DNA of 64,000 bases from Lentisphaeria bacterium (lineage in GTDB: Bacteria > Verrucomicrobiota > Lentisphaeria > Oligosphaerales > Oligosphaeraceae), in NCBI GenBank assembly GCA_024405215.1, contig JAKSPB010000005.1, positions 1 to 64,000 of the forward strand. The letters run 5' to 3'. Below, one piece after another: positions 19,095 through 40,995 of this stretch. A program made the translations under genes and the position numbers. Below the pieces are notes generated by a model that ran no database searches, was not told the origin of the DNA, and was given only the letters and a program-made list of their open reading frames with translations. Every line of letters starts with the position of its first letter. The first letter of the stretch is position 1.

Positions 19095-19222
19095 TTTGGG
19101 AATTATATATTTAAGTTGCCTACGTGGTCTGATGCTGCGTTTCCCCGAGGCTTGCGCCTCGGGCACAGGACAAGTCCGTATCGTCAATCAATAACGGCAA
19201 TTTATGTATATAGTTCCCAAAA
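19095..19222. repeat. Family I foldback element, copy B (MITE-like)
   Basis: About 128 bp. The ends TTTGGGAATTATATATTTAA... and ...TTATGTATATAGTTCCCAAA are inverted repeats matching at roughly 22 of 26 positions, ending in AAGTTGCC and GGCAATTT. The core holds the CCCGAGG/CCTCGGG hairpin followed by GCACAGGACAAGTCCG. This is the clearest copy at its termini. It carries no open frame. Confidence 0.9.
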
Positions 19223-24919: not shown

Positions 24920-25023
24920 TGGCTCTCGGGGCTGGCTGCAAGAACCTTGTCGGTCAGCCTCCATTCGCATTCTGCGTGAAATGCGTGTAACCGTCTCTCT
25001 GGCGGGACGCGCAGAACACGTAA

Positions 25024-25153
25024 AAAAAGAATTACATACTTAAGTTGCCTGCGTGCCTTGACACTGCATTTTCCCGAGGCTTGCGCCTCGGGCACAGGAC
25101 AAGTCCGTATCATCAATCAATAGCGGCAACTTAGGTATGTTGTTCCCTAAAAA
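25024..25153. repeat. Family I foldback element, copy C (MITE-like)
   Basis: About 130 bp lying 105 bp after nagB. Terminal inverted repeats are ACATACTTAAGTTGCC and GGCAACTTAGGTATGT, and the core has the same CCCGAGG/CCTCGGG hairpin and GGACAAGTCCGTATCATCAA as copy B. Its right end abuts the terminator hairpin that follows. Confidence 0.9.
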
Positions 25154-31781: not shown

Positions 31782-31891
31782 AGTGCTATTTTTCGTTTTT
31801 TCTCACTATTGGGAACAGTTCTTTTTTTCCTAAAATATGATTGACGCCCGAAAATGGTGTTTCCTCGAAAATCGGAAGGATTTTTTTCCGG

Positions 31892-31909
31892 GTCGGCTTT
31901 TTTGCCGAC
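31892..31909 (+). promoter_or_regulatory. Leader hairpin upstream of the prepilin-like gene
   Basis: GTCGGC-TTTTTT-GCCGAC forms a perfect 6-bp stem with a six-T loop. A second possible hairpin (CGGAA...TTCCG) lies just before it at about 31873-31890. Both fall in the predicted long leader between promoter and ATG. Function is unknown; control of translation or mRNA stability is possible. Confidence 0.45.
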
Positions 31910-31977
31910 AACTCAAGTCCCACGTGAGCGCTATCTGTTCACAAGTCATTCCCCAAAACAACCCAAGGAGCAAAGAA

Positions 31978-32760
31978 ATGAAGCGTAATTCCTTCACTCT
32001 GATCGAACTGCTGGTGGTCATTGCCATCATCGCCATCCTGGCCTCCATGCTGTTGCCTGCCTTGTCCAAGGCCCGTGAGAAGGCCCGTTCCATCGCCTGC
32101 GTCAACAACCTGAAGCAGATCGGTATTGCCATGGTCCTTTACTTGGATGACCACAATGGCAATTTTATGGACGACTACAACACCAAGGTCTATCATAGCC
32201 AGAGGACGAACAGTGACATTCCCGTGGACCGCGCTCCCTGGTCGTTCCTCCTGACCGACAACGGCTATCTGCCCTATCCGGGCGGCCAGGATGTCGGCTA
32301 CTTTGGCGGCGGTAACGTCACCAAGCACATTCTCTTCTGCCCCTCTTCCTCCACGACCAGAGAAAAATATCTGTGCGACTATGGCATCAACCTCAATCTG
32401 ACTCGTCACCAAAATAACGCCACCTGGGATTCCTACTGCTGCTACAATATCGATGCCCTGACGGCTCCCTCCAAGATGGCAATGATCACCGATACCGCAA
32501 AATCCTCCTCGGACGAAGCAGGCAGCGGCGAAGCGCAGCAGCCCCTCTTTTTCGGACGTGCATCAAATTTCAGTGGCACCGGCGCCGCGTTCTCCTGCGA
32601 TACACCGTACTGCATCTCCATGTCCCGTCATGGCAAGTTCTGCGCCAACATGCTCTTCTGCGATACCCATGTGGAGACCATCCGCAAGGGACAGCTGCCT
32701 GTTGATGTCTACAGCGGCACTGCCGTCTGCAGCGTTGCTCTGATCAAGCAGCAGCAGTAA
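31978..32760 (+). CDS. Type II secretion/prepilin-like protein, H-x9-DG (DUF1559-like) family
   Basis: A 260-aa protein with a type IV prepilin-style N terminus. A short basic leader MKRNS precedes [24 protein letters not shown], the hydrophobic helix cut and methylated by a prepilin peptidase, and then [19 protein letters not shown], the hallmark of the large prepilin families of Lentisphaerota and Planctomycetota. The rest is a secreted globular domain with several Cys and the terminal FCDTHVE segment. CAAGGAG precedes the ATG at 31978. An earlier in-frame ATG at 31837 has no ribosome site and would bury the leader. A hairpin lies 11 bp after the stop and the GH123-like gene starts about 107 bp downstream. 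Confidence 0.92.
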
Positions 32761-32867: not shown

Positions 32868-35800
32868 ATGTTGATGGAAAAGAGGCTATTTCTTTTTGCG
32901 TTTTGCGTTGCGTTTGTGGTTTTAGGATCGGCGATGGAATATCCGACATACGGCTGGAATACCTGGAAGCACGCGGAAAACGGCGGGGCCTTCGAGCGGG
33001 TGGAGCCCAACGCCGAATTTGCAGAAGGGGCGTTGAAGTTCGTTCCCGACCAGGATATCCAGAAGAGTTATTCTTTGCAGGCGTATGGCGATGTGCCCGC
33101 CAAGTCTGACGAAGTGGTTTCCGTTACTTTCCGGATTCTTGCCAGCGCGGACGTATCTCCTGCGGCAACGATGATTTTCAGTCTTGACACCAAGAACGAG
33201 TCGCAGGAGTGGTATAAGGTATTCAAGACGCCTTTGCAGAAAGCGCTGGATGTCATTCCCGGCATTGAGCAGACGATTACGCTGGAAGCGGATTTCAAGC
33301 AGTTTGAGGCAAGGGAACTGGGTTTTGTTTGCCCGATCGTCGAAGTGAACAATTTGACTGCGGGTTATGTGGCTGTTTTGCCCATCAAGGTCTCGGCCAA
33401 AAAGAGTGTTTATACGGCGTCGGAAAAAACGCAGGTTCCTGGCCTGGATGGATATGTCATTCAGGAGGATGCCCTGACGCAGTTCAAGTGGGCGGGTGCC
33501 GTGGCGGATGACAAGTTCGAGCGTCTGCTGAACTATGCGGCGCTTGGGTTGAATATCGTTGATTTGACGCCGAAGAACAAGGCGGTTGCCTGGCAATGGC
33601 TGGAAGGCGACACGGTGAGCACTGTCTATGCGGGAGGAAAATGGTGCATTTCCGTGGGCGAAACGCCTGAGGCGCAACATGAAGCATTGGTTATTATTGG
33701 CGAGAATCTTTCCGCCGCCGAATATGGTTCTGGCGTGCTCTTCAGAGGTGCGGATGGCGTGGTCCATCTAGTGGAAGGCGGCATGGAATCCACTGGACAC
33801 ACGTTGCTTCGCGCCAAAGGCACACCGGAAATCGACGTGCGCGGTCTCTATGTTGCGGACGACGCATGCTCTCTCTTCTGGATTGACGAGGCGCAGCGGG
33901 AATTGCGTCGCGCCAAGAAGGTCTATGAATCGAACCTGGAGTACATTCCCCCAATCTGGGGCGCTTACAATGTCGCCCGCAAATGGGAAAATGCGTTTGA
34001 CCTCTATAGGCAGGCGCTGGAGGAGATGAAGCGGAATGTCATGGCGCGAACGGAAGGTTGGGGAGCGGCGCTTGTCGCGAATCCTCTGTTGCACGACCGC
34101 TATGGCCAGCTGATCTGGATGGCGGCGCGTGAATACATCGAAGAGTCCGGCTATTTCGGCGGCGTATTTCGCAAAACGTGGTTTACGCATCTCGGTGGAG
34201 CTGGACAAGTGGGACAGACTCTTGAGTTCGCCCGCAAATGCGACGAACTGGCGGCCCGTGCGCGCCGTCTCGAAAAAGCGAATTTCAAGGAAGGCATAGC
34301 TGCGGGAGAGCAGTTCGCCGCAGGCTGGATCAATGGCCTGGAGCATGTCTATCCCTCCGCAGGCAACAACAGACGGCTCAGCCGGGAGTGGACATTGGAT
34401 GTGGCGCGCGGTGAAGCGGAGGATGCGCAGCTGGTACTGACAAGCGGAGACAATGCAGTGGAAGGTCTGGTTGTCTCCATCCAGGCGGAGCAGAAGAACG
34501 CGCCAGTCTTCTCTCTCTACCGCACGGAGTGCGTTACCATTACGCCAAGTCCCATGCCAATGCTTCCGCTGTGCCATCCTGGCGACAGCAAGATGCCGGA
34601 CATTCTGATTCCCCTGGCGGAAGGCGAGGCGGTCGCTTTGGAGAAGGAATCCAATCTGGCGATTCAGGCACGTATTCGCGTGGCGCATGACGCGAAACCA
34701 GGCAAATACACCTATCACGTGAGTGTCAAGAAAGGTGATGTGCAAATTGTTCTTCCTCTGACGGTTGTGGTGCATGGTTTCGACATTTCGGACCGACCTC
34801 TGCCCAATATCGCGGGCCTTCGTCCAAGTACCTTCCGCGAATGGTATAAGGACGACGCGCAGAAAGCGCGCAGGAATTTTGCTCTGGAGCTGATGGATTG
34901 CCATCTGGAGCCGCTGGATCTCTACAGCCAGACGCCGGTTGTGGAAGACCAGGACTGGGCGGTGGAACACGGTGTCCGTGCATGGAATTTCGGCGGCAAT
35001 CTCAACGCCCTGGCCGACCCGGATTCCACTATGCTGGAGTTCGTGAAGCTTCTGGGCAGCACGGACGGAAAGACATTCACGGTGATTCCTGCGGAGTTCT
35101 CGTTGGAGCGCCGCGTGGAGGCCGAGCCGTTGAGCGATGTGGATCTTGTGATCGTTCCGAAGGCTTCCGTCGCCAAATACCGCTATCTGAAGATTCATGA
35201 CAGCGAAGTGCGTGGCTGGTACAACCGCAGCAACTACCACTTCTTCTACGTCTATGCGAACTCGCCTTTTGGCCCTGCTGTTTCGTTGACGGATGCGGAT
35301 GGCGTCAAGAAGGGAATCAGTGATGTCCGCTTCCTGCAGCCGGACAAGAATCCGTCCGTATCCGGCGTGGAACAGTTCAAGGCGATAAGCGGCATTGCGT
35401 TTGACAATCTCCGCGACGCCAGCAACTGCGGCTCTGTGCTACTGGAGAAAGGCGAAGGCGAAGTGACGGAAGTGCGGCTTTTCAACCGTCTGAAGCAGGC
35501 GAATTGGGAAAGCATGTCCAAGTTCTACAATGCTTTCCTGGAGAAGACGGATGGAAAGGCCGAAATCTATCTCTACGGCTTTGACGAAGTTGCTTCGTAT
35601 CTCAACGGCCAGGTGATCTCTGCCCTGAAGAACACCAAGCTGGCCTTCCCGAAGATCCGCACGATTTCGACTCTTGCCCATGCTGAGGCCAATCCGGAGA
35701 TCTTCGGGCTGCTGGACATTCACTGCCCGACAAATGTCTATGCCACGCCGCGCTTCAACAAACGGACCCATGATCGGGTGGGGACGGAGTATTGGACTTA

Positions 35801-36287
35801 TATTGGCGGCGGTGGTTACTACCCCTTTGGCAATTTCGAGCGCGTGGATCAGCCGCTGGTGAACTCCCGCGCCTTCCTATGGGAACCCATCGCCTTTGAT
35901 CATATCAAGGGCTTCCTCTTCTGGGATATCCACATGTGGCGCAGCAACAACCATTTGATTGGAATTGACAAGGTCGATTGGAGCAAATGGTGCACCACAC
36001 ATGGCGAGACGAATGGAATGGGCGCACTTTTCTATCCGGGGCCGAATGCCACGATCTATCCCTCCCGCCGGGCACATACCATTTGCGACGGCATTGAGGA
36101 CTACGCGGCCTTCAAACTGGCGAAGGAAAAGATCGCTGCGCTTGGCAATCCCGCCGCGCTGACAACGCGTCTTGCGGCAATCCGCGAAAACTTCTCCACT
36201 GGCATGAGCGTCTTCAACCATGACGCAGAGTCCGTGCGACAGAACCGTCTGGACCTCTATGGCCTGTTGGATGAATTGACCGAGTAG
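32868..36287 (+). CDS. Large secreted GH123-like glycoside hydrolase (DUF4091)
   Basis: A protein of about 1139 aa with an N-terminal signal (EKRLFLFAFCVAFVVLGSA). The last 450 residues match the GH123/DUF4091 plan. YLYGFDE contains adjacent Asp906-Glu907, the acid pair used by beta-N-acetylgalactosaminidases of this family. FLFWDIHMWRSNNH and YPSRRAHTICDGIEDYAAFKLAKE follow near the end. About residues 520-640 form a beta-sandwich (SREWTLDVARGEAEDAQLVL), as usual before GH123 catalytic barrels; the first 500 residues are not recognised. AGGAG at 32859-32863 serves several closely spaced starts (32865, 32868, 32874); the choice is uncertain by three residues. The sialidase-like gene begins 6 bp after the stop. 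Confidence 0.82.
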   Translation: MLMEKRLFLFAFCVAFVVLGSAMEYPTYGWNTWKHAENGGAFERVEPNAEFAEGALKFVPDQDIQKSYSLQAYGDVPAKSDEVVSVTFRILASADVSPAATMIFSLDTKNESQEWYKVFKTPLQKALDVIPGIEQTITLEADFKQFEARELGFVCPIVEVNNLTAGYVAVLPIKVSAKKSVYTASEKTQVPGLDGYVIQEDALTQFKWAGAVADDKFERLLNYAALGLNIVDLTPKNKAVAWQWLEGDTVSTVYAGGKWCISVGETPEAQHEALVIIGENLSAAEYGSGVLFRGADGVVHLVEGGMESTGHTLLRAKGTPEIDVRGLYVADDACSLFWIDEAQRELRRAKKVYESNLEYIPPIWGAYNVARKWENAFDLYRQALEEMKRNVMARTEGWGAALVANPLLHDRYGQLIWMAAREYIEESGYFGGVFRKTWFTHLGGAGQVGQTLEFARKCDELAARARRLEKANFKEGIAAGEQFAAGWINGLEHVYPSAGNNRRLSREWTLDVARGEAEDAQLVLTSGDNAVEGLVVSIQAEQKNAPVFSLYRTECVTITPSPMPMLPLCHPGDSKMPDILIPLAEGEAVALEKESNLAIQARIRVAHDAKPGKYTYHVSVKKGDVQIVLPLTVVVHGFDISDRPLPNIAGLRPSTFREWYKDDAQKARRNFALELMDCHLEPLDLYSQTPVVEDQDWAVEHGVRAWNFGGNLNALADPDSTMLEFVKLLGSTDGKTFTVIPAEFSLERRVEAEPLSDVDLVIVPKASVAKYRYLKIHDSEVRGWYNRSNYHFFYVYANSPFGPAVSLTDADGVKKGISDVRFLQPDKNPSVSGVEQFKAISGIAFDNLRDASNCGSVLLEKGEGEVTEVRLFNRLKQANWESMSKFYNAFLEKTDGKAEIYLYGFDEVASYLNGQVISALKNTKLAFPKIRTISTLAHAEANPEIFGLLDIHCPTNVYATPRFNKRTHDRVGTEYWTYIGGGGYYPFGNFERVDQPLVNSRAFLWEPIAFDHIKGFLFWDIHMWRSNNHLIGIDKVDWSKWCTTHGETNGMGALFYPGPNATIYPSRRAHTICDGIEDYAAFKLAKEKIAALGNPAALTTRLAAIRENFSTGMSVFNHDAESVRQNRLDLYGLLDELTE

Positions 36288-36293
36288 GGCATA

Positions 36294-37466
36294 ATGATGT
36301 TGAATATACAAGAACTTCCTGCGCCGTTGGCATCGCGGGAGAAGCACGACTTCTTCCATCCGTCTCCGTGCGTCTTGACTGGCGGTCTCTGGATGATGAC
36401 CTTCCATCGGATTCAGAATGCCGACTGCTATGGCGGTTGCGAGGCGGTCTTCAGCGTTGACGAGGGGAGGACTTGGAGCGCTCCCCGGAAGGTGGAGGCG
36501 CTGCGGACCTTGGCGGTGAGAAAAAATCTGATGCTGGGAATTGCGGACGTGCGCCCGTTCTCTTCTCAAGATGGCGAAAAGGCGCTTCTCATCGGTTGCG
36601 ACACCATCTACACTCTCCTGGGCAATGCCAGCTGGGACAAGGATGCGCCGGAGCCGCCGCCTCTCAGATATGGCAGCTACTATACGGTCTTTGATGTGAA
36701 GAGACGTGTCTTCGGCCCTCGCCGGATGCTGCGCAATCCCGCGTTGCCGCCGGAGAAGCTCTGGCGTGTCGCCTGTGCGCAGGCGACGTATGCTCCAGAC
36801 GGCGACTGGATTCTGCCGGCCTATTTCGAGTATCGAGCCAATGTGGAATACGAGGCGGGCTACTTCTCGCCGCGTTTTGCCGTGGAGACCGTGAAGGTCC
36901 ATCTGGAAGGCGATACGCTCATTCCCGTGGCCTGGGGGACGCAGCTGGTCTACGAGAATATGCGCGGCTTCCTGGAACCGTCGCTGATTCGGGGAACGCG
37001 TGACTATCTCTTGACCATCCGTGCGGAGGACGGCTGCGCCTATGTGGCCCGCAGCATGGATGGTCTCCAGTGGCCGCAGCCCGTCCCCTGGCGCTTTGAC
37101 GACGGCGCTCTGCTGGAGACCGACTCCACTCAACAGCACTGGATGATGGTTGGCGGACGCTTACATCTCGTCTATACGCGAAAATGCGCGGAGAGCGCCA
37201 ATGCCATGCGCTACCGGTCCATCCTGTTTGTCGCGGAAGTGGATGATGCGCAGGAAACTCCTGTGCTGAAACGAAATACGGAGCAGGAGCTGTGTCCAAG
37301 ACGCCAGCGCAACGGCGTGGATGGACTGCTGGGGAATTTCCACGTGGCGAATCTGGCGGACGGAACGGCGCTTGTCGGAGACGCCTACGGGTTCTACAAA
37401 GTTGAAAACGATGACATCGTCGAGCGCTATAACGATGTCGTCCTGAAACGAGTCAGTCTTAAATAG
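36294..37466 (+). CDS. Sialidase/BNR-repeat-like protein
   Basis: A 390-aa protein with no signal peptide and a six-bladed-propeller pattern. One good Asp-box, SVDEGRTW, is at residues 54-61. A weaker one, SMDGLQW, lies near 250. HPSPCVLTGGLWMM at the start and LEPSLIRG in the middle are typical of sialidase-superfamily repeats. The Arg triad of a true exo-sialidase cannot be confirmed by eye, so hydrolase or lectin-like roles remain open. It is packed between the GH123-like gene (6 bp) and the DHDPS/NAL-type lyase (17 bp), which favours a role in handling sialylated or GalNAc-containing glycans. Confidence 0.75.
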   Translation: MMLNIQELPAPLASREKHDFFHPSPCVLTGGLWMMTFHRIQNADCYGGCEAVFSVDEGRTWSAPRKVEALRTLAVRKNLMLGIADVRPFSSQDGEKALLIGCDTIYTLLGNASWDKDAPEPPPLRYGSYYTVFDVKRRVFGPRRMLRNPALPPEKLWRVACAQATYAPDGDWILPAYFEYRANVEYEAGYFSPRFAVETVKVHLEGDTLIPVAWGTQLVYENMRGFLEPSLIRGTRDYLLTIRAEDGCAYVARSMDGLQWPQPVPWRFDDGALLETDSTQQHWMMVGGRLHLVYTRKCAESANAMRYRSILFVAEVDDAQETPVLKRNTEQELCPRRQRNGVDGLLGNFHVANLADGTALVGDAYGFYKVENDDIVERYNDVVLKRVSLK

Positions 37467-37483: not shown

Positions 37484-38410
37484 ATGAAATTCGGAATGAA
37501 TGTCTTCGACGGCGCCTGGTCCGCCATGTCCACGCCTTTGACGCCGGACGGGCGGGTGGACGCGGATGCGCTGGAGAAGCTGGTGGAGCACCAGCTGAAG
37601 CTGGGCATCAAGGGCCTTTTCATCGGCGGCACCGCCGGCGAGGGTCCCTTCCTGGCCGACGCGGAACGGGCCCGCCTGGCGAAGCTTACCGTGCGGTTCG
37701 CGGCGGGGCGCATGCCCGTCGCCATGCAGGTCACGGACAACTCCGCGGAGCGAATGATCGAGAACCTGGGCCGCTACCAGGACGAGGGCATCGACATCGC
37801 CGTCGTCGCGCCGCCCTTCTTCCAGCTTGACGCGACGCAGGATTTCCTCTACGGCATCTACTGCAAGGTGATGGACGCCTGCCAGATCCCGGTCGGCCTC
37901 TACAATCTCGGGAAGAACACCAGGACGCTCGTGACCCCGGAAACCCTCGCCAGGCTCCTGGAGAACCCCAAGGTCGTGCTGGTCAAGGACAGCTCCAGCG
38001 AAGACGCCTACGAGCAGGTGATCCTGGCCGCGAAGGCCCGCCGCGGCGGCACGCTTGCGGCCCTCTGCGGCGACGAGTTCAACAGCGTCCATTACATGCG
38101 AAAAGGCTATGACGGCGTGCTTTTCGGCGGCGGCTGCTTCAACGGCGCGTACGCGGCCGAGATGCACCGCCTGGTCCGCGCAGGCAAGGCGGACGAGGCG
38201 CAGAAGCTGCAGGAGCATCTTGACGAGGTCCTCTACAAGGTCTTCGGCGGGAAGGAGCTGACCTGCTGGCTGGCCGGCCAGAAGGAGCTGATGGTCCGCC
38301 TGGGCGTCTTCAACACCGCCAAGACCCTCCTGAACTACAGGCTTACCGACGAGTGCTCGAAGGCCATCGACGAGGTCCTTCGCGACGAGGCGAAGTGGCT
38401 TCTGCCCTAG
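37484..38410 (+). CDS. DHDPS/N-acetylneuraminate lyase-family aldolase
   Basis: A 308-aa class I aldolase of the DapA/NanA superfamily. Schiff-base Lys168 sits in VVLVKDSS, the proton-relay Tyr140 in VGLYNLGK, and the pyruvate-binding loop is GGTAGEGP (48-55). Context beside sialidase-like and GH123-like genes favours sialic acid or a related keto-acid sugar over lysine synthesis, but GTAGEG alone does not decide. AGGAGAATCAAC precedes the ATG. GC jumps here: a sample line in 38041-38100 is 68% GC, against 58% in the preceding gene and 53% in the following transporter, and codons end mostly in C or G. The lyase and the next two genes look acquired together. Confidence 0.87.
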   Translation: MKFGMNVFDGAWSAMSTPLTPDGRVDADALEKLVEHQLKLGIKGLFIGGTAGEGPFLADAERARLAKLTVRFAAGRMPVAMQVTDNSAERMIENLGRYQDEGIDIAVVAPPFFQLDATQDFLYGIYCKVMDACQIPVGLYNLGKNTRTLVTPETLARLLENPKVVLVKDSSSEDAYEQVILAAKARRGGTLAALCGDEFNSVHYMRKGYDGVLFGGGCFNGAYAAEMHRLVRAGKADEAQKLQEHLDEVLYKVFGGKELTCWLAGQKELMVRLGVFNTAKTLLNYRLTDECSKAIDEVLRDEAKWLLP

Positions 38411-38428
38411 CGCAAGGAGGAAATTCCC

Positions 38429-38875
38429 ATGCTTCGCTATCAAGAGAACAACGAACTCCATCGGGATTTCCACGGTACGACGAACACCACGCTGGACTAC
38501 ATCGTGGAGCGTTACGGCGTGGAGGCCCTGAAGGAGATTCTTCACCGCACGGGCCACGACGTGTACAAGTCCATCCGCGAAAAGCTGGAGAAGGGCGACG
38601 CGTCCGAGCTCGTCGAGCACCTGAACTGGTTCTACCACCGGGAGGGCGCGCCCTATCAATTGACCGTGACGGAGGACGAGATCCGCTTCGAGGTCTTCGA
38701 GTGCCCCGCCCATCGCCATCTCAAGGCCCTGGGCCTGCCGGTCTCGCGGCACAGCTGCCTGCAGACCGGCGAGGTCAACGCGGGGATGTGCGAGGGCACC
38801 CGGTGGGAGGCGTCCCTGGAAAAGGTCGGCGACGACCACTGCGTGCAGATTTTCAGGAGGAGGAAGGCGGAATGA
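38429..38875 (+). CDS. Small Cys-containing protein, resembling the L-2-amino-thiazoline-4-carboxylate hydrolase group
   Basis: A 148-aa soluble protein. The N-terminal half is helical (TLDYIVERYGVEALKEILHRTG). The C-terminal half has ECP (near 95), a second Cys in SRHSC, a third in AGMCEG and a final DHCVQIF strand. The order CP, then LGLP, C, and late G..HC.xF recalls the ATC hydrolase-like family, but this is pattern memory and weak. AAGGAGGAAATTCCC gives a strong ribosome site. It follows the lyase by 18 bp, overlaps the next gene by 4 bp (ATGA), and shares their high GC. Confidence 0.8.
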   Translation: MLRYQENNELHRDFHGTTNTTLDYIVERYGVEALKEILHRTGHDVYKSIREKLEKGDASELVEHLNWFYHREGAPYQLTVTEDEIRFEVFECPAHRHLKALGLPVSRHSCLQTGEVNAGMCEGTRWEASLEKVGDDHCVQIFRRRKAE

Positions 38876-39360
38876 TTCCCAGCGACCACTTTGTGCGATT
38901 CTACAACGAGGTCTTCAAGTTCCTGGACGAACGGGACGGCCTGCGGGACTACTACGACGAGATCAGCCGGCACCAGGACTTCCATTGCCAGAAGCTCTTC
39001 AAGGAGAAGGGGCTGGAGGGCGTGGAGGAATACTACCGGAAGATCCGCGTCGAGGAGAATTGCGACATGGACATCGAACTGGACGGCCACGAGCTGCTCC
39101 TGCGGATGAACCGCTGCCCCAGCCTCTCCAAGGCCATCGACAACGACGCCGGCGCCTGCCCGAAATACTGCATGCACTGCCCCGGATGGGTCCATCCGCT
39201 ATACACCCGCGTGGGGCTCTACGACGTCTATGACCTGAAGGGACTGGACGAGCCGGCCTGCACGGAGTATATCAGCGACGACCTGGAAGTCGCCCGCGCC
39301 AGGCGGGACGAACTGCTCAAGATCCGCCCGAAAGAGCAGATCATCTGCAATTTCGAGTAG
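38872..39360 (+). CDS. Small Cys-rich protein with CX3CX2C motif, unknown function
   Basis: A 162-aa protein with eight Cys. Helical residues 1-60 are followed by a beta segment (MDIELDGHELLLRM), then NRCPSLSKAI and GACPKYCMHCPGW, which contains CX3CX2C, and finally PACTEY and a C-terminal IICNF. That spacing equals the iron-sulfur motif of radical SAM enzymes. The protein is far too short for that fold, so metal binding is only a possibility. The ATG at 38872 overlaps the stop of the preceding gene. Longer upstream readings in this frame cross the lyase gene and are artefacts. It is likely translated with, and may bind, the preceding small protein. Confidence 0.8.
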   Translation: MIPSDHFVRFYNEVFKFLDERDGLRDYYDEISRHQDFHCQKLFKEKGLEGVEEYYRKIRVEENCDMDIELDGHELLLRMNRCPSLSKAIDNDAGACPKYCMHCPGWVHPLYTRVGLYDVYDLKGLDEPACTEYISDDLEVARARRDELLKIRPKEQIICNFE

Positions 39361-39423: not shown

Positions 39424-39553
39424 TTTGGGGGAACTATAGTACCTACAAGTTGCCGTAATTGATTGTTGATACGAACTTGTCCTGTGCTCGAGGTGCAAGG
39501 CTCAGGAAAATGCAGCATCAGAAAACGCAGGCAACGATAAGTATGTAATTTTC
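39424..39553. repeat. Family I foldback element, copy D, reverse orientation
   Basis: About 130 bp. Relative to copies B and C it is inverted: CTTGTCCTGTGCTCGAGGTGCAAGG is the reverse complement of their core with a few changes, and the ends are AACTATAGTACCTACAAGTTGCC and GGCAACGATAAGTATGTAA. It lies between the Cys-rich gene and the MFS transporter and marks the right border of the high-GC segment. Confidence 0.88.
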
Positions 39554-39570
39554 ATTTTTCACGCGAAGCC

Positions 39571-40995
39571 ATGTCAAATCAACCTCAAGAGTACATTGAC
39601 ACTCCCGAAACACTGGAGAAATTCAAGCGCGAATTTCGTTTCCACCGTTTTCGTTTTGGCATCGCCAATCTATTTTTCCAATGCGAGGAATCTTCCCTGG
39701 GCGCCGTAAAGGCTGCGGTTCTGAAGGCACTTGGGGCCAACGACCGTCATTTTGGAATTCTCGGAGCGTGTTCTGGGTTCATACGGCTCTTTGAATTTCT
39801 CGCCATGCCGTTGCTCAATCATTACCGCAGCTACTACCGCTCCATGCGGAGCGCGCTGTGGGTGGGCGTCCTTTCGGCGTCAGTTCTGGCGGGCGCAGTA
39901 CTTCTCGGCAATATTCCGAACTGGGGCATCATCGGCATCTGGAGTTTCTTGATCTGGTCGATTGTGATGTCCATTGCCACGGGAGTGCAAATCAATGTGG
40001 AACTCGCCTGGATTGGCGACATGGTGCCACGCAAGCTTCTCGGATGGTTTACCAGCGTCAAATACATCATCAGCGTTGTGGGCATGGCGTTGCTGAGTCT
40101 GGTTTTCAGCCTGGTTTACGACTATTTTGATAAAATCGATCCAGACAACGCGCCAAGTGTCATTCGATGTCTCTCATGGCTGGAAAACCTATTCCCGCAT
40201 TCCGAACGGAACTTCTGGGCTTTGCTGGCCTGCAGTCTTCTGTTCCTGTTTGTGGCTGCCAGCCATGTGGCGGCGATTGTTCTTATCTCACAAGTCCCTG
40301 ACCAAACGCCGGTTGAGGCGAAATTCATCTCGAAGAAACGCTCCGAGCGCATAAACTATCGTGCCTTGCCTCTTTGGACATATACCATTTTCTTTATCTT
40401 CTGGACGGGCGGACGTACCGCGCATTATGCGCTGACCTCCATCTTTCTGATGCGCATCTATGACATGAAGATCACTGGCGTCGCCATTCTGGCTGCCATC
40501 GGTACGCTTACGCAGGCGGTGTCTCTCTTCGTCATGGGCAAGGTCAGCGACCGCTGGGGCAATCGCAAATTGCTGATGATCGTCTCCGGGGTTGTGGCGT
40601 GTTCCATGTATATTTGGACATTGACAGCCTGGACTGGCTGGAAGATCATCATCGCCTCCTACCTTATTGAAGGACTGGCGGGCCATAATCACTCCATGCT
40701 CTCCAACAACTACGGCATTGAGATTTTCCCCGGCAAAGGCCGGGCCGCCTATTTTGGCGTCGTGCATTTGGCTCTGGGAATCGTCTGCGTTTTGCTCACG
40801 TGTTTTGTGGGCGAGTTTTCTCATGCTCTTGAAAAACTGCAATGGAGCATGGAATTTCTCGGCGCTACGCTTACCCACTACCATCTGGTCTTTTTCTGCT
40901 GCTCGACATTTACATTATGCTGCGTGATTCCTCTTCTGCTTGTGGGAAATCGTGTGGTGAAACCGCCGGAACAGGATAAATCCAGCGATGATTAA
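39571..40995 (+). CDS. MFS-family transporter
   Basis: A 474-aa inner-membrane protein with about twelve helices. The MFS loop signature GKVSDRWGNRKLL lies between helices in the second half and LLGWFTSVKYIISVVG in the first. The N terminus is soluble and charged (about 35 aa). Following the hydrolase-lyase set, it is the natural candidate for uptake of the released sugar or acid. The family I element precedes it by 17 bp, so it may have its own promoter or depend on the element. Composition returns to about 53% GC. Confidence 0.86.
   Translation: MSNQPQEYIDTPETLEKFKREFRFHRFRFGIANLFFQCEESSLGAVKAAVLKALGANDRHFGILGACSGFIRLFEFLAMPLLNHYRSYYRSMRSALWVGVLSASVLAGAVLLGNIPNWGIIGIWSFLIWSIVMSIATGVQINVELAWIGDMVPRKLLGWFTSVKYIISVVGMALLSLVFSLVYDYFDKIDPDNAPSVIRCLSWLENLFPHSERNFWALLACSLLFLFVAASHVAAIVLISQVPDQTPVEAKFISKKRSERINYRALPLWTYTIFFIFWTGGRTAHYALTSIFLMRIYDMKITGVAILAAIGTLTQAVSLFVMGKVSDRWGNRKLLMIVSGVVACSMYIWTLTAWTGWKIIIASYLIEGLAGHNHSMLSNNYGIEIFPGKGRAAYFGVVHLALGIVCVLLTCFVGEFSHALEKLQWSMEFLGATLTHYHLVFFCCSTFTLCCVIPLLLVGNRVVKPPEQDKSSDD

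Follow-up and report, generated by a model that had tools for sequence, protein, structure and literature searches.

What would a pyruvate lyase do beside two small cysteine-rich proteins? The question is raised by three consecutive genes on the + strand, here called g1, g2 and g3, in a 64,000-nucleotide stretch of DNA from a Lentisphaeria bacterium that was analysed as a whole (the window). A first-pass annotation had suggested that the lyase and its two possible metal- or thiol-binding partners, placed inside a glycan locus, could form an undescribed sugar-acid pathway. Our analysis indicates that the trio is probably part of an undescribed sugar-acid breakdown route, because it recurs in distant bacteria, and its g2-g3 pair in SAR11, beside sugar-breakdown genes. 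The features of the locus are:

32874-36287, + strand: GH123-catalytic-domain-like protein (PF13320, E=4e-6, exceeding the curated cut-off)
36294-37466, + strand: BNR_2 beta-propeller with a sialidase-like fold (PF13088, E=3e-9)
37484-38410, + strand: g1, class I pyruvate lyase of the DHDPS/NAL superfamily, type A, 308 aa (PF00701, E=3e-38)
38411-38428, + strand: gap of 18 bp between g1 and g2, with the ribosome-binding site AGGAGG inside
38429-38875, + strand: g2, predicted V4R/Bet3-like protein, 148 aa (AlphaFold2, Foldseek and conservation)
38872-39360, + strand: g3, predicted V4R/MopR/Bet3-like protein, 162 aa (AlphaFold2, Foldseek and conservation)
about 39429-39560, no strand assigned: interspersed repeat of ~120 bp, the right-hand border of the trio
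39571-40995, + strand: MFS transporter, a candidate uptake partner (PF07690, E=2e-16)

The short g1-g2 gap and the ATGA overlap of g2 with g3 are both present in the sequence as first described, and so are the four cysteines of g2 and the eight of g3. Codon use in the trio is indeed unlike that of both neighbours, with a GC content at third codon positions (GC3) of 0.913 in g1, 0.872 in g2 and 0.883 in g3, above that of all other long ORFs called within the window, against 0.708 in the upstream BNR gene and 0.625 in the downstream MFS gene. The difference in composition lies mainly at these third positions, and the overall GC of 65-68% originally given for the trio did not stand (measured totals are 65.3% for g1, 62.4% for g2 and 60.1% for g3). 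Since the GH123-like and BNR genes are separated by only 6 bp, and the BNR gene and g1 by 17 bp, the transcription unit is probably GH123-BNR-g1-g2-g3, with the GH123-like gene as its probable first member. Homologues of the latter (39% identity) lie immediately upstream of g1-g2-g3 in two other loci (L018 and L040), and relatives of the BNR_2 protein, in which a signal peptide is not obvious by eye, lie close to g2-g3 in four (L004, L023, L036 and L132). These two upstream genes make the description of the surroundings as a glycan locus reasonable. Further upstream, the protein encoded at 31837-32760 carries a motif for prepilin N-methylation and begins like a DUF1559/SBP_bac_10 protein; other Lentisphaeria, too, have pseudopilin-like genes of this sort (cluster c13) close to the trio.

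The element noted to the right of the trio is the ~120-bp repeat, which has 43 matches across the organism's own 2.98-Mb genome, mostly at 72-87% identity, with further copies within the window at 25019-25153 and 19101-19218. A structured RNA was sought in the repeat and ruled out, as there is no stable fold (z=+0.45) and no matching Rfam family. The MFS gene, downstream of the repeat and low in GC3, probably constitutes a separate transcription unit.

The assignment of g1 to the DHDPS/NAL superfamily is clear (131.6 bits against PF00701, for a curated cut-off of 22.1), and the protein has a catalytic Tyr140, a Schiff-base Lys168 and a GTAGEG motif. It scores below all curated NCBIfam equivalog cut-offs, however, and by those criteria is not DapA (TIGR00674, 115 bits for a cut-off of 206), NanA (TIGR00683 and NF003164, 57 for 382 and 71 for 281) or a KDG aldolase (66 for 390). 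The g1-type genes form two subfamilies: type A, the kind present in the window, shows GTxGEG, Y[NHD]xG and KDSS and is 37-72% identical to g1, while type B shows LGSMGEW, YYYHCPPNN and GIKNSS and is mostly 20-28% identical to g1. Both keep the catalytic Tyr and Lys wherever that segment aligns. Neither type could be equated with a characterised lyase, as comparisons with the PDB and NCBIfam put both far from DapA, NanA, YagE and HOGA. At two loci (L041, 834-1772; L043, 2556-3572) a canonical g1 has beside it another member of the DHDPS family that has diverged strongly, with TPGNSHY replacing GTxGE and the catalytic Tyr position substituted.

To follow the trio beyond the window, one genome per species was scanned with g3 alone, which yielded 117 confirmed relatives, of which 80 were kept; since only g3 served as the query, the presence of g1 and g2 represents independent observations. 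Carriers are found among Lentisphaeria/Victivallales, Kiritimatiellae, Phycisphaerae, Verrucomicrobiota and alphaproteobacteria, the last including Pelagibacteraceae (SAR11), Sulfitobacter, Hyphomicrobiales and Devosia. In nearly all loci g2 lies directly upstream of g3, usually with the ATGA overlap: counting loci that are not phylogenetically independent, the pair is present in about 56 of 63 PVC loci (55, or 56 with L024 read by eye) and in 25 of 26 alphaproteobacterial ones, and 40 of the 46 PVC loci with room have a g1-type gene no more than 3.5 kb away. Most unpaired loci end at a contig edge, the singles with room being L016, L035, L075 and L098. With three DHDPS genes in the 2.98 Mb of the own genome, chance proximity of g1 would be expected at well under 1 in 46. 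More distant Verrucomicrobiota homologues (62-94 bits) also keep the g1-g2-g3 order (L095, L096, L099, L100, L119 and L122). The trio, which the first-pass annotation had proposed to seek in other genomes, therefore recurs across the PVC group in the same order. None of the 24 alphaproteobacterial loci with room has a g1-type gene near the pair, so that g2-g3 is not strictly dependent on g1.

Occurrence is patchy in whole-genome samples (37 of 289 Verrucomicrobiota sensu lato, 2 of 385 alphaproteobacteria and 3 of 199 Planctomycetota), and g3 is ~50% identical between herbivore-gut Lentisphaeria and SAR11. The cassette has probably been exchanged horizontally; a plasmid collection queried with the Devosia g3 gave no match. 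The own genome holds a second copy of the module (L104; G000 contig C3, 62000-72394), whose g3 is cut by the contig end and whose gene order onward is g3-SDR-AKR.

What varies beside the constant g2-g3 pair is the aldolase. Alphaproteobacterial loci have an HpcH/HpaI aldolase in place of g1, and across the set g1 types A and B and HpcH alternate or co-occur; on a quick g3 tree, whose shallow forks are partly unresolved, the aldolase type changes at least seven times while g2 and g3 are kept together. HpcH relatives are found alongside g1 in L021, L024, L050 and L119, and also in L118 and L129. HpcH is therefore not a mere substitute, and the presence of both at several PVC loci rules out a purely non-orthologous replacement of one by the other. 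A strict co-evolution of the trio was likewise discarded, because distance correlations within PVC are nil for g1-g3 (r=0.005) and weak for g2-g3 (r about 0.2) and give no support beyond adjacency.

The wider neighbourhood is rich in sugar-related functions. One SDR, 47-65% identical, is common to PVC and SAR11 loci, adjoining HpcH in alphaproteobacteria and g1 plus an AKR in Lentisphaeria. BNR propellers and SSS/MFS transporters are recurrent neighbours, and GntR-, AraC- or ROK-like regulators are present at many loci. Individual loci contain NanM-like mutarotases above the PF24996 cut-off (L097 and L098), an N-acylglucosamine 2-epimerase (AGE) with a ROK regulator (L103), SASA (L100), SSS symporters (L099 and L105), and a KDG kinase with a KDPG-type aldolase (L049). 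The alphaproteobacterial operon has the core NagA-like-g2-g3-BNR, surrounded by a D-serine-dehydratase-type (DTA/BhcC-like) PLP enzyme, RidA, an SDR, HpcH, an MFS transporter and a second BNR gene. In alphaproteobacterial loci such as L064 and L068 (range L053-L082), from SAR11 and relatives, the conserved order reads SDR-HpcH-PLP deaminase-like-RidA-SDR-NagA-like-g2-g3-BNR-MFS-BNR, and our search for a paper on this SAR11-type cluster returned none. No lactonase was recognised among the annotated neighbours of either the PVC or the alphaproteobacterial group, nor were partner electron carriers near g2-g3. Of the original proposal, that a lyase and two Cys proteins serve a sugar-acid pathway, it is the context that fits, locus by locus (pyruvate aldolases, SDR/AKR, BNR, NanM/AGE, KDG kinase and KDPG-type aldolase), and what the loci share would be a 2-keto-3-deoxy acid that pyruvate aldolases form or split, accompanied by sugar oxidoreductases.

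We then consider the small proteins themselves. Pfam and NCBIfam searches with g2 and g3 gave sub-threshold matches only, and the concern that the two might be known enzymes of unrelated pathways found no curated family to sustain it. The g2 protein reaches 14.7 bits against ATC_hydrolase (PF14196), below the gathering cut-off of 28.1, and 28 of 62 g2 homologues match this family at E<0.1 (best 3e-4); g2 also weakly matches the V4R regulator MsvR (NCBIfam, E=2e-5), far under the family cut-off. Profile searches with g3 gave nothing credible, and a PDB sequence search with both proteins returned only de novo designs and chance matches. Cross-matches identify g2 and g3 as remote paralogues. Among near and far homologues of g3 the residues Y11, E62, C82-P83-S84, Y99-C100-x-H102-C103 and C130 are invariant, while g2 conserves D13-F14, E72, C92 (with one exception) and mostly C110 and C138, which are lost in several homologues. 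The spacing of C82-C100 in g3 is that of C92-C110 in g2, with a further Cys 28-30 residues later in each. The CX3CX2C motif reported for g3 exists as C96-x3-C100-x2-C103, but its first Cys, C96, varies (54/95 near homologues), and the conserved set comprises C82, C100, H102, C103 and C130. Tandem g3 duplicates occur at about a dozen loci, with up to three copies (L006, 4977-6486) and a single g2; a change in ligand specificity is possible.

AlphaFold2 models built from 62 (g2) and 70 (g3) sequences have mean pLDDT values of 92.3 and 93.6, respectively, and both predicted structures resemble the V4R/Bet3-like fold. In Foldseek the g2 model matches Bet3 with E=8e-4 and a probability of 1.0, and the g3 model matches MopR with E=0.019 and a probability of 0.99; TM scores are about 0.5, a value at which the V4R likeness holds at the fold level only. 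For g3 against MopR and TRAPP subunits together, probabilities are 0.97-0.99 and E-values about 0.02-0.04. The closest solved structures are the MopR/DmpR aromatic sensor domains, TRAPP Bet3 subunits and BcsD scaffolds. A three-Cys cluster is common to V4R and ATC hydrolase domains (PMC5847659), and the zinc ligands of DmpR are Cys151, Glu172, Cys177 and Cys185 (PMC7264223); taken with the conserved Cys pattern, these make a Cys-zinc site in g3 likely by analogy. Judging from conservation, the invariant polar residues of g3 would sit more naturally in an active site than in a hydrophobic sensor pocket. Given that g2 and g3 are almost always paired, are paralogous and have a fold that tends to form dimers, they may well be two halves of one complex.

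Taken together, we tentatively propose, at a little under an even chance, that the trio is a horizontally exchanged sugar-acid cassette in which the substrate of the g1 lyase is also handled by a Cys/metal heteromer with the V4R fold. The substrate would be a 2-keto-3-deoxy sugar acid, either sialic-acid-like or aldonate-derived, which g1 would cleave or dehydrate via its Lys Schiff base. The g2 and g3 proteins would form an obligate V4R/Bet3-fold heteromer, with a Cys-based site in g3 (C82, C100, C103 and C130), probably containing zinc, beside the invariant H102, E62 and Y11. This heteromer would process the acid on its way to g1, and its reaction would most likely be the opening or hydrolysis of a cyclic form (a lactone, hemiketal or imine), in the way that the related ATC hydrolases act on a thiazoline ring. 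The metal, the heteromer, the enzymatic role and the substrate class are what we infer here from the observed gene order, conservation, pairing, lyase residues and neighbouring genes and from the predicted fold. For the pair alone, a heteromeric V4R-fold enzyme whose Cys-metal site opens or hydrolyses a cyclic acid or its precursor is preferred over a sensor or carrier, a choice made with less than even confidence. The fullest version is doubtful as a whole: in it, g2-g3 would be a previously undescribed heterodimeric V4R-fold metalloenzyme that opens a ring or isomerises its substrate in a non-phosphorylative pathway for a sialic-acid-like or amino-aldonate sugar acid, and this pathway would have passed between marine SAR11, gut/rumen Lentisphaeria and further PVC bacteria.

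Proteins with the V4R fold serve as sensors or scaffolds more often than as enzymes, and this, like the modest Foldseek E-values (0.02 for the g3 model), counts against an enzymatic reading. The pair could instead be a V4R-type ligand-binding sensor, carrier or scaffold that, by binding the sugar acid or an intermediate, modulates the lyase or supplies it with substrate, in keeping with the nature of the closest solved structures and the sub-cut-off similarity of g2 to MsvR. Yet g2 and g3 have no DNA-binding or output domain, many loci already possess regulators of their own, and both the invariant polar residues of g3 and the adjoining catabolic genes speak for another function, making such a role rather unlikely. 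The conserved Cys cluster and the weak similarity of g2 to MsvR, a redox-sensing V4R regulator, could point to g2 and g3 guarding or activating the lyase as redox or thiol proteins of the Fe-S or persulfide kind. The conserved Cys spacing of g3, however, resembles the DmpR zinc site, and partner electron carriers were not recognised nearby; we consider this very unlikely.

The most specific proposal, owing to the lack of a recognised lactonase in either operon group, is that g2-g3 is an aldonolactonase or lactone/hemiacetal opener acting between the SDR and later steps, which in alphaproteobacteria would follow an Ong-like sequence from SDR through g2-g3, the NagA-like deacetylase and the PLP deaminase with RidA to HpcH. 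The gene order there agrees with it, as does the GlcNAc1A (Ong) route, for which the deacetylase OngB, the PLP deaminase OngC and the RidA-like OngD have been demonstrated experimentally (PMC9537276). That pathway was nevertheless described without g2-g3, the deacetylase and deaminase are missing from PVC operons, and lactones often open spontaneously; we regard a lactonase as improbable. Finally, the distinct GC3, the adjacent repeat and the patchy distribution would be compatible with an accidental neighbourhood or compositional island of functionally unlinked genes, but the same trio in the same order across phyla and the co-occurrence counts contradict this, leaving it scarcely credible. 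The heteromeric enzyme remains our preferred reading of the pair. As an uncurated protein pair nearly always found beside pyruvate-aldolase chemistry, g2-g3 suggests a missing catabolic step skipped by annotation pipelines, in carriers that include SAR11, whose cells are among the most abundant in the ocean. With a fold predicted and residues named, the two genes make a concrete target, and an enzymatic role of g2-g3, if confirmed, would move the V4R fold further beyond sensing and into catalysis.

A search of the open-access literature on the pair, on SAR11 sialic acid and on an ATC hydrolase beside DHDPS returned no description of the module, which nonetheless shares elements with several known systems. 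The g1 protein has the fold family, GTxGE-type motif and catalytic Tyr and Lys of the DHDPS/NAL superfamily (PF00701), but where YNxP is usual it has Y-[NHD]-x-G. With the sialic acid (Nan) system the loci share a NAL-superfamily lyase and BNR propellers and, at some loci, NanM-like, AGE, SASA and SSS genes; they differ in that the lyase is not assignable to NanA, no NanK or NanE is found among the genes scanned beside the trio, and the BNR proteins of the window and of the SAR11 type are without an obvious signal peptide. The alphaproteobacterial g2-g3 loci resemble the Ong pathway (PMC9537276) in that, by family assignment, they encode a deacetylase, RidA and a PLP enzyme of fold III, although their deacetylase is NagA-like whereas OngB is D-aminoacylase-like, they add HpcH, g2-g3, BNR and SDR genes, and KdgK was not seen in the fetched stretch; PVC loci are without the deacetylase/deaminase set, and the window has no Ong-set genes beside the trio. 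With the V4R/ATC hydrolase/MopR-DmpR/Bet3 group, g2 and g3 share the predicted fold and the Cys cluster, but they occur as a stand-alone two-gene pair in catabolic operons. The folds are known; what appears to be a new variation is that two such proteins serve as a free-standing pair within a catabolic operon.
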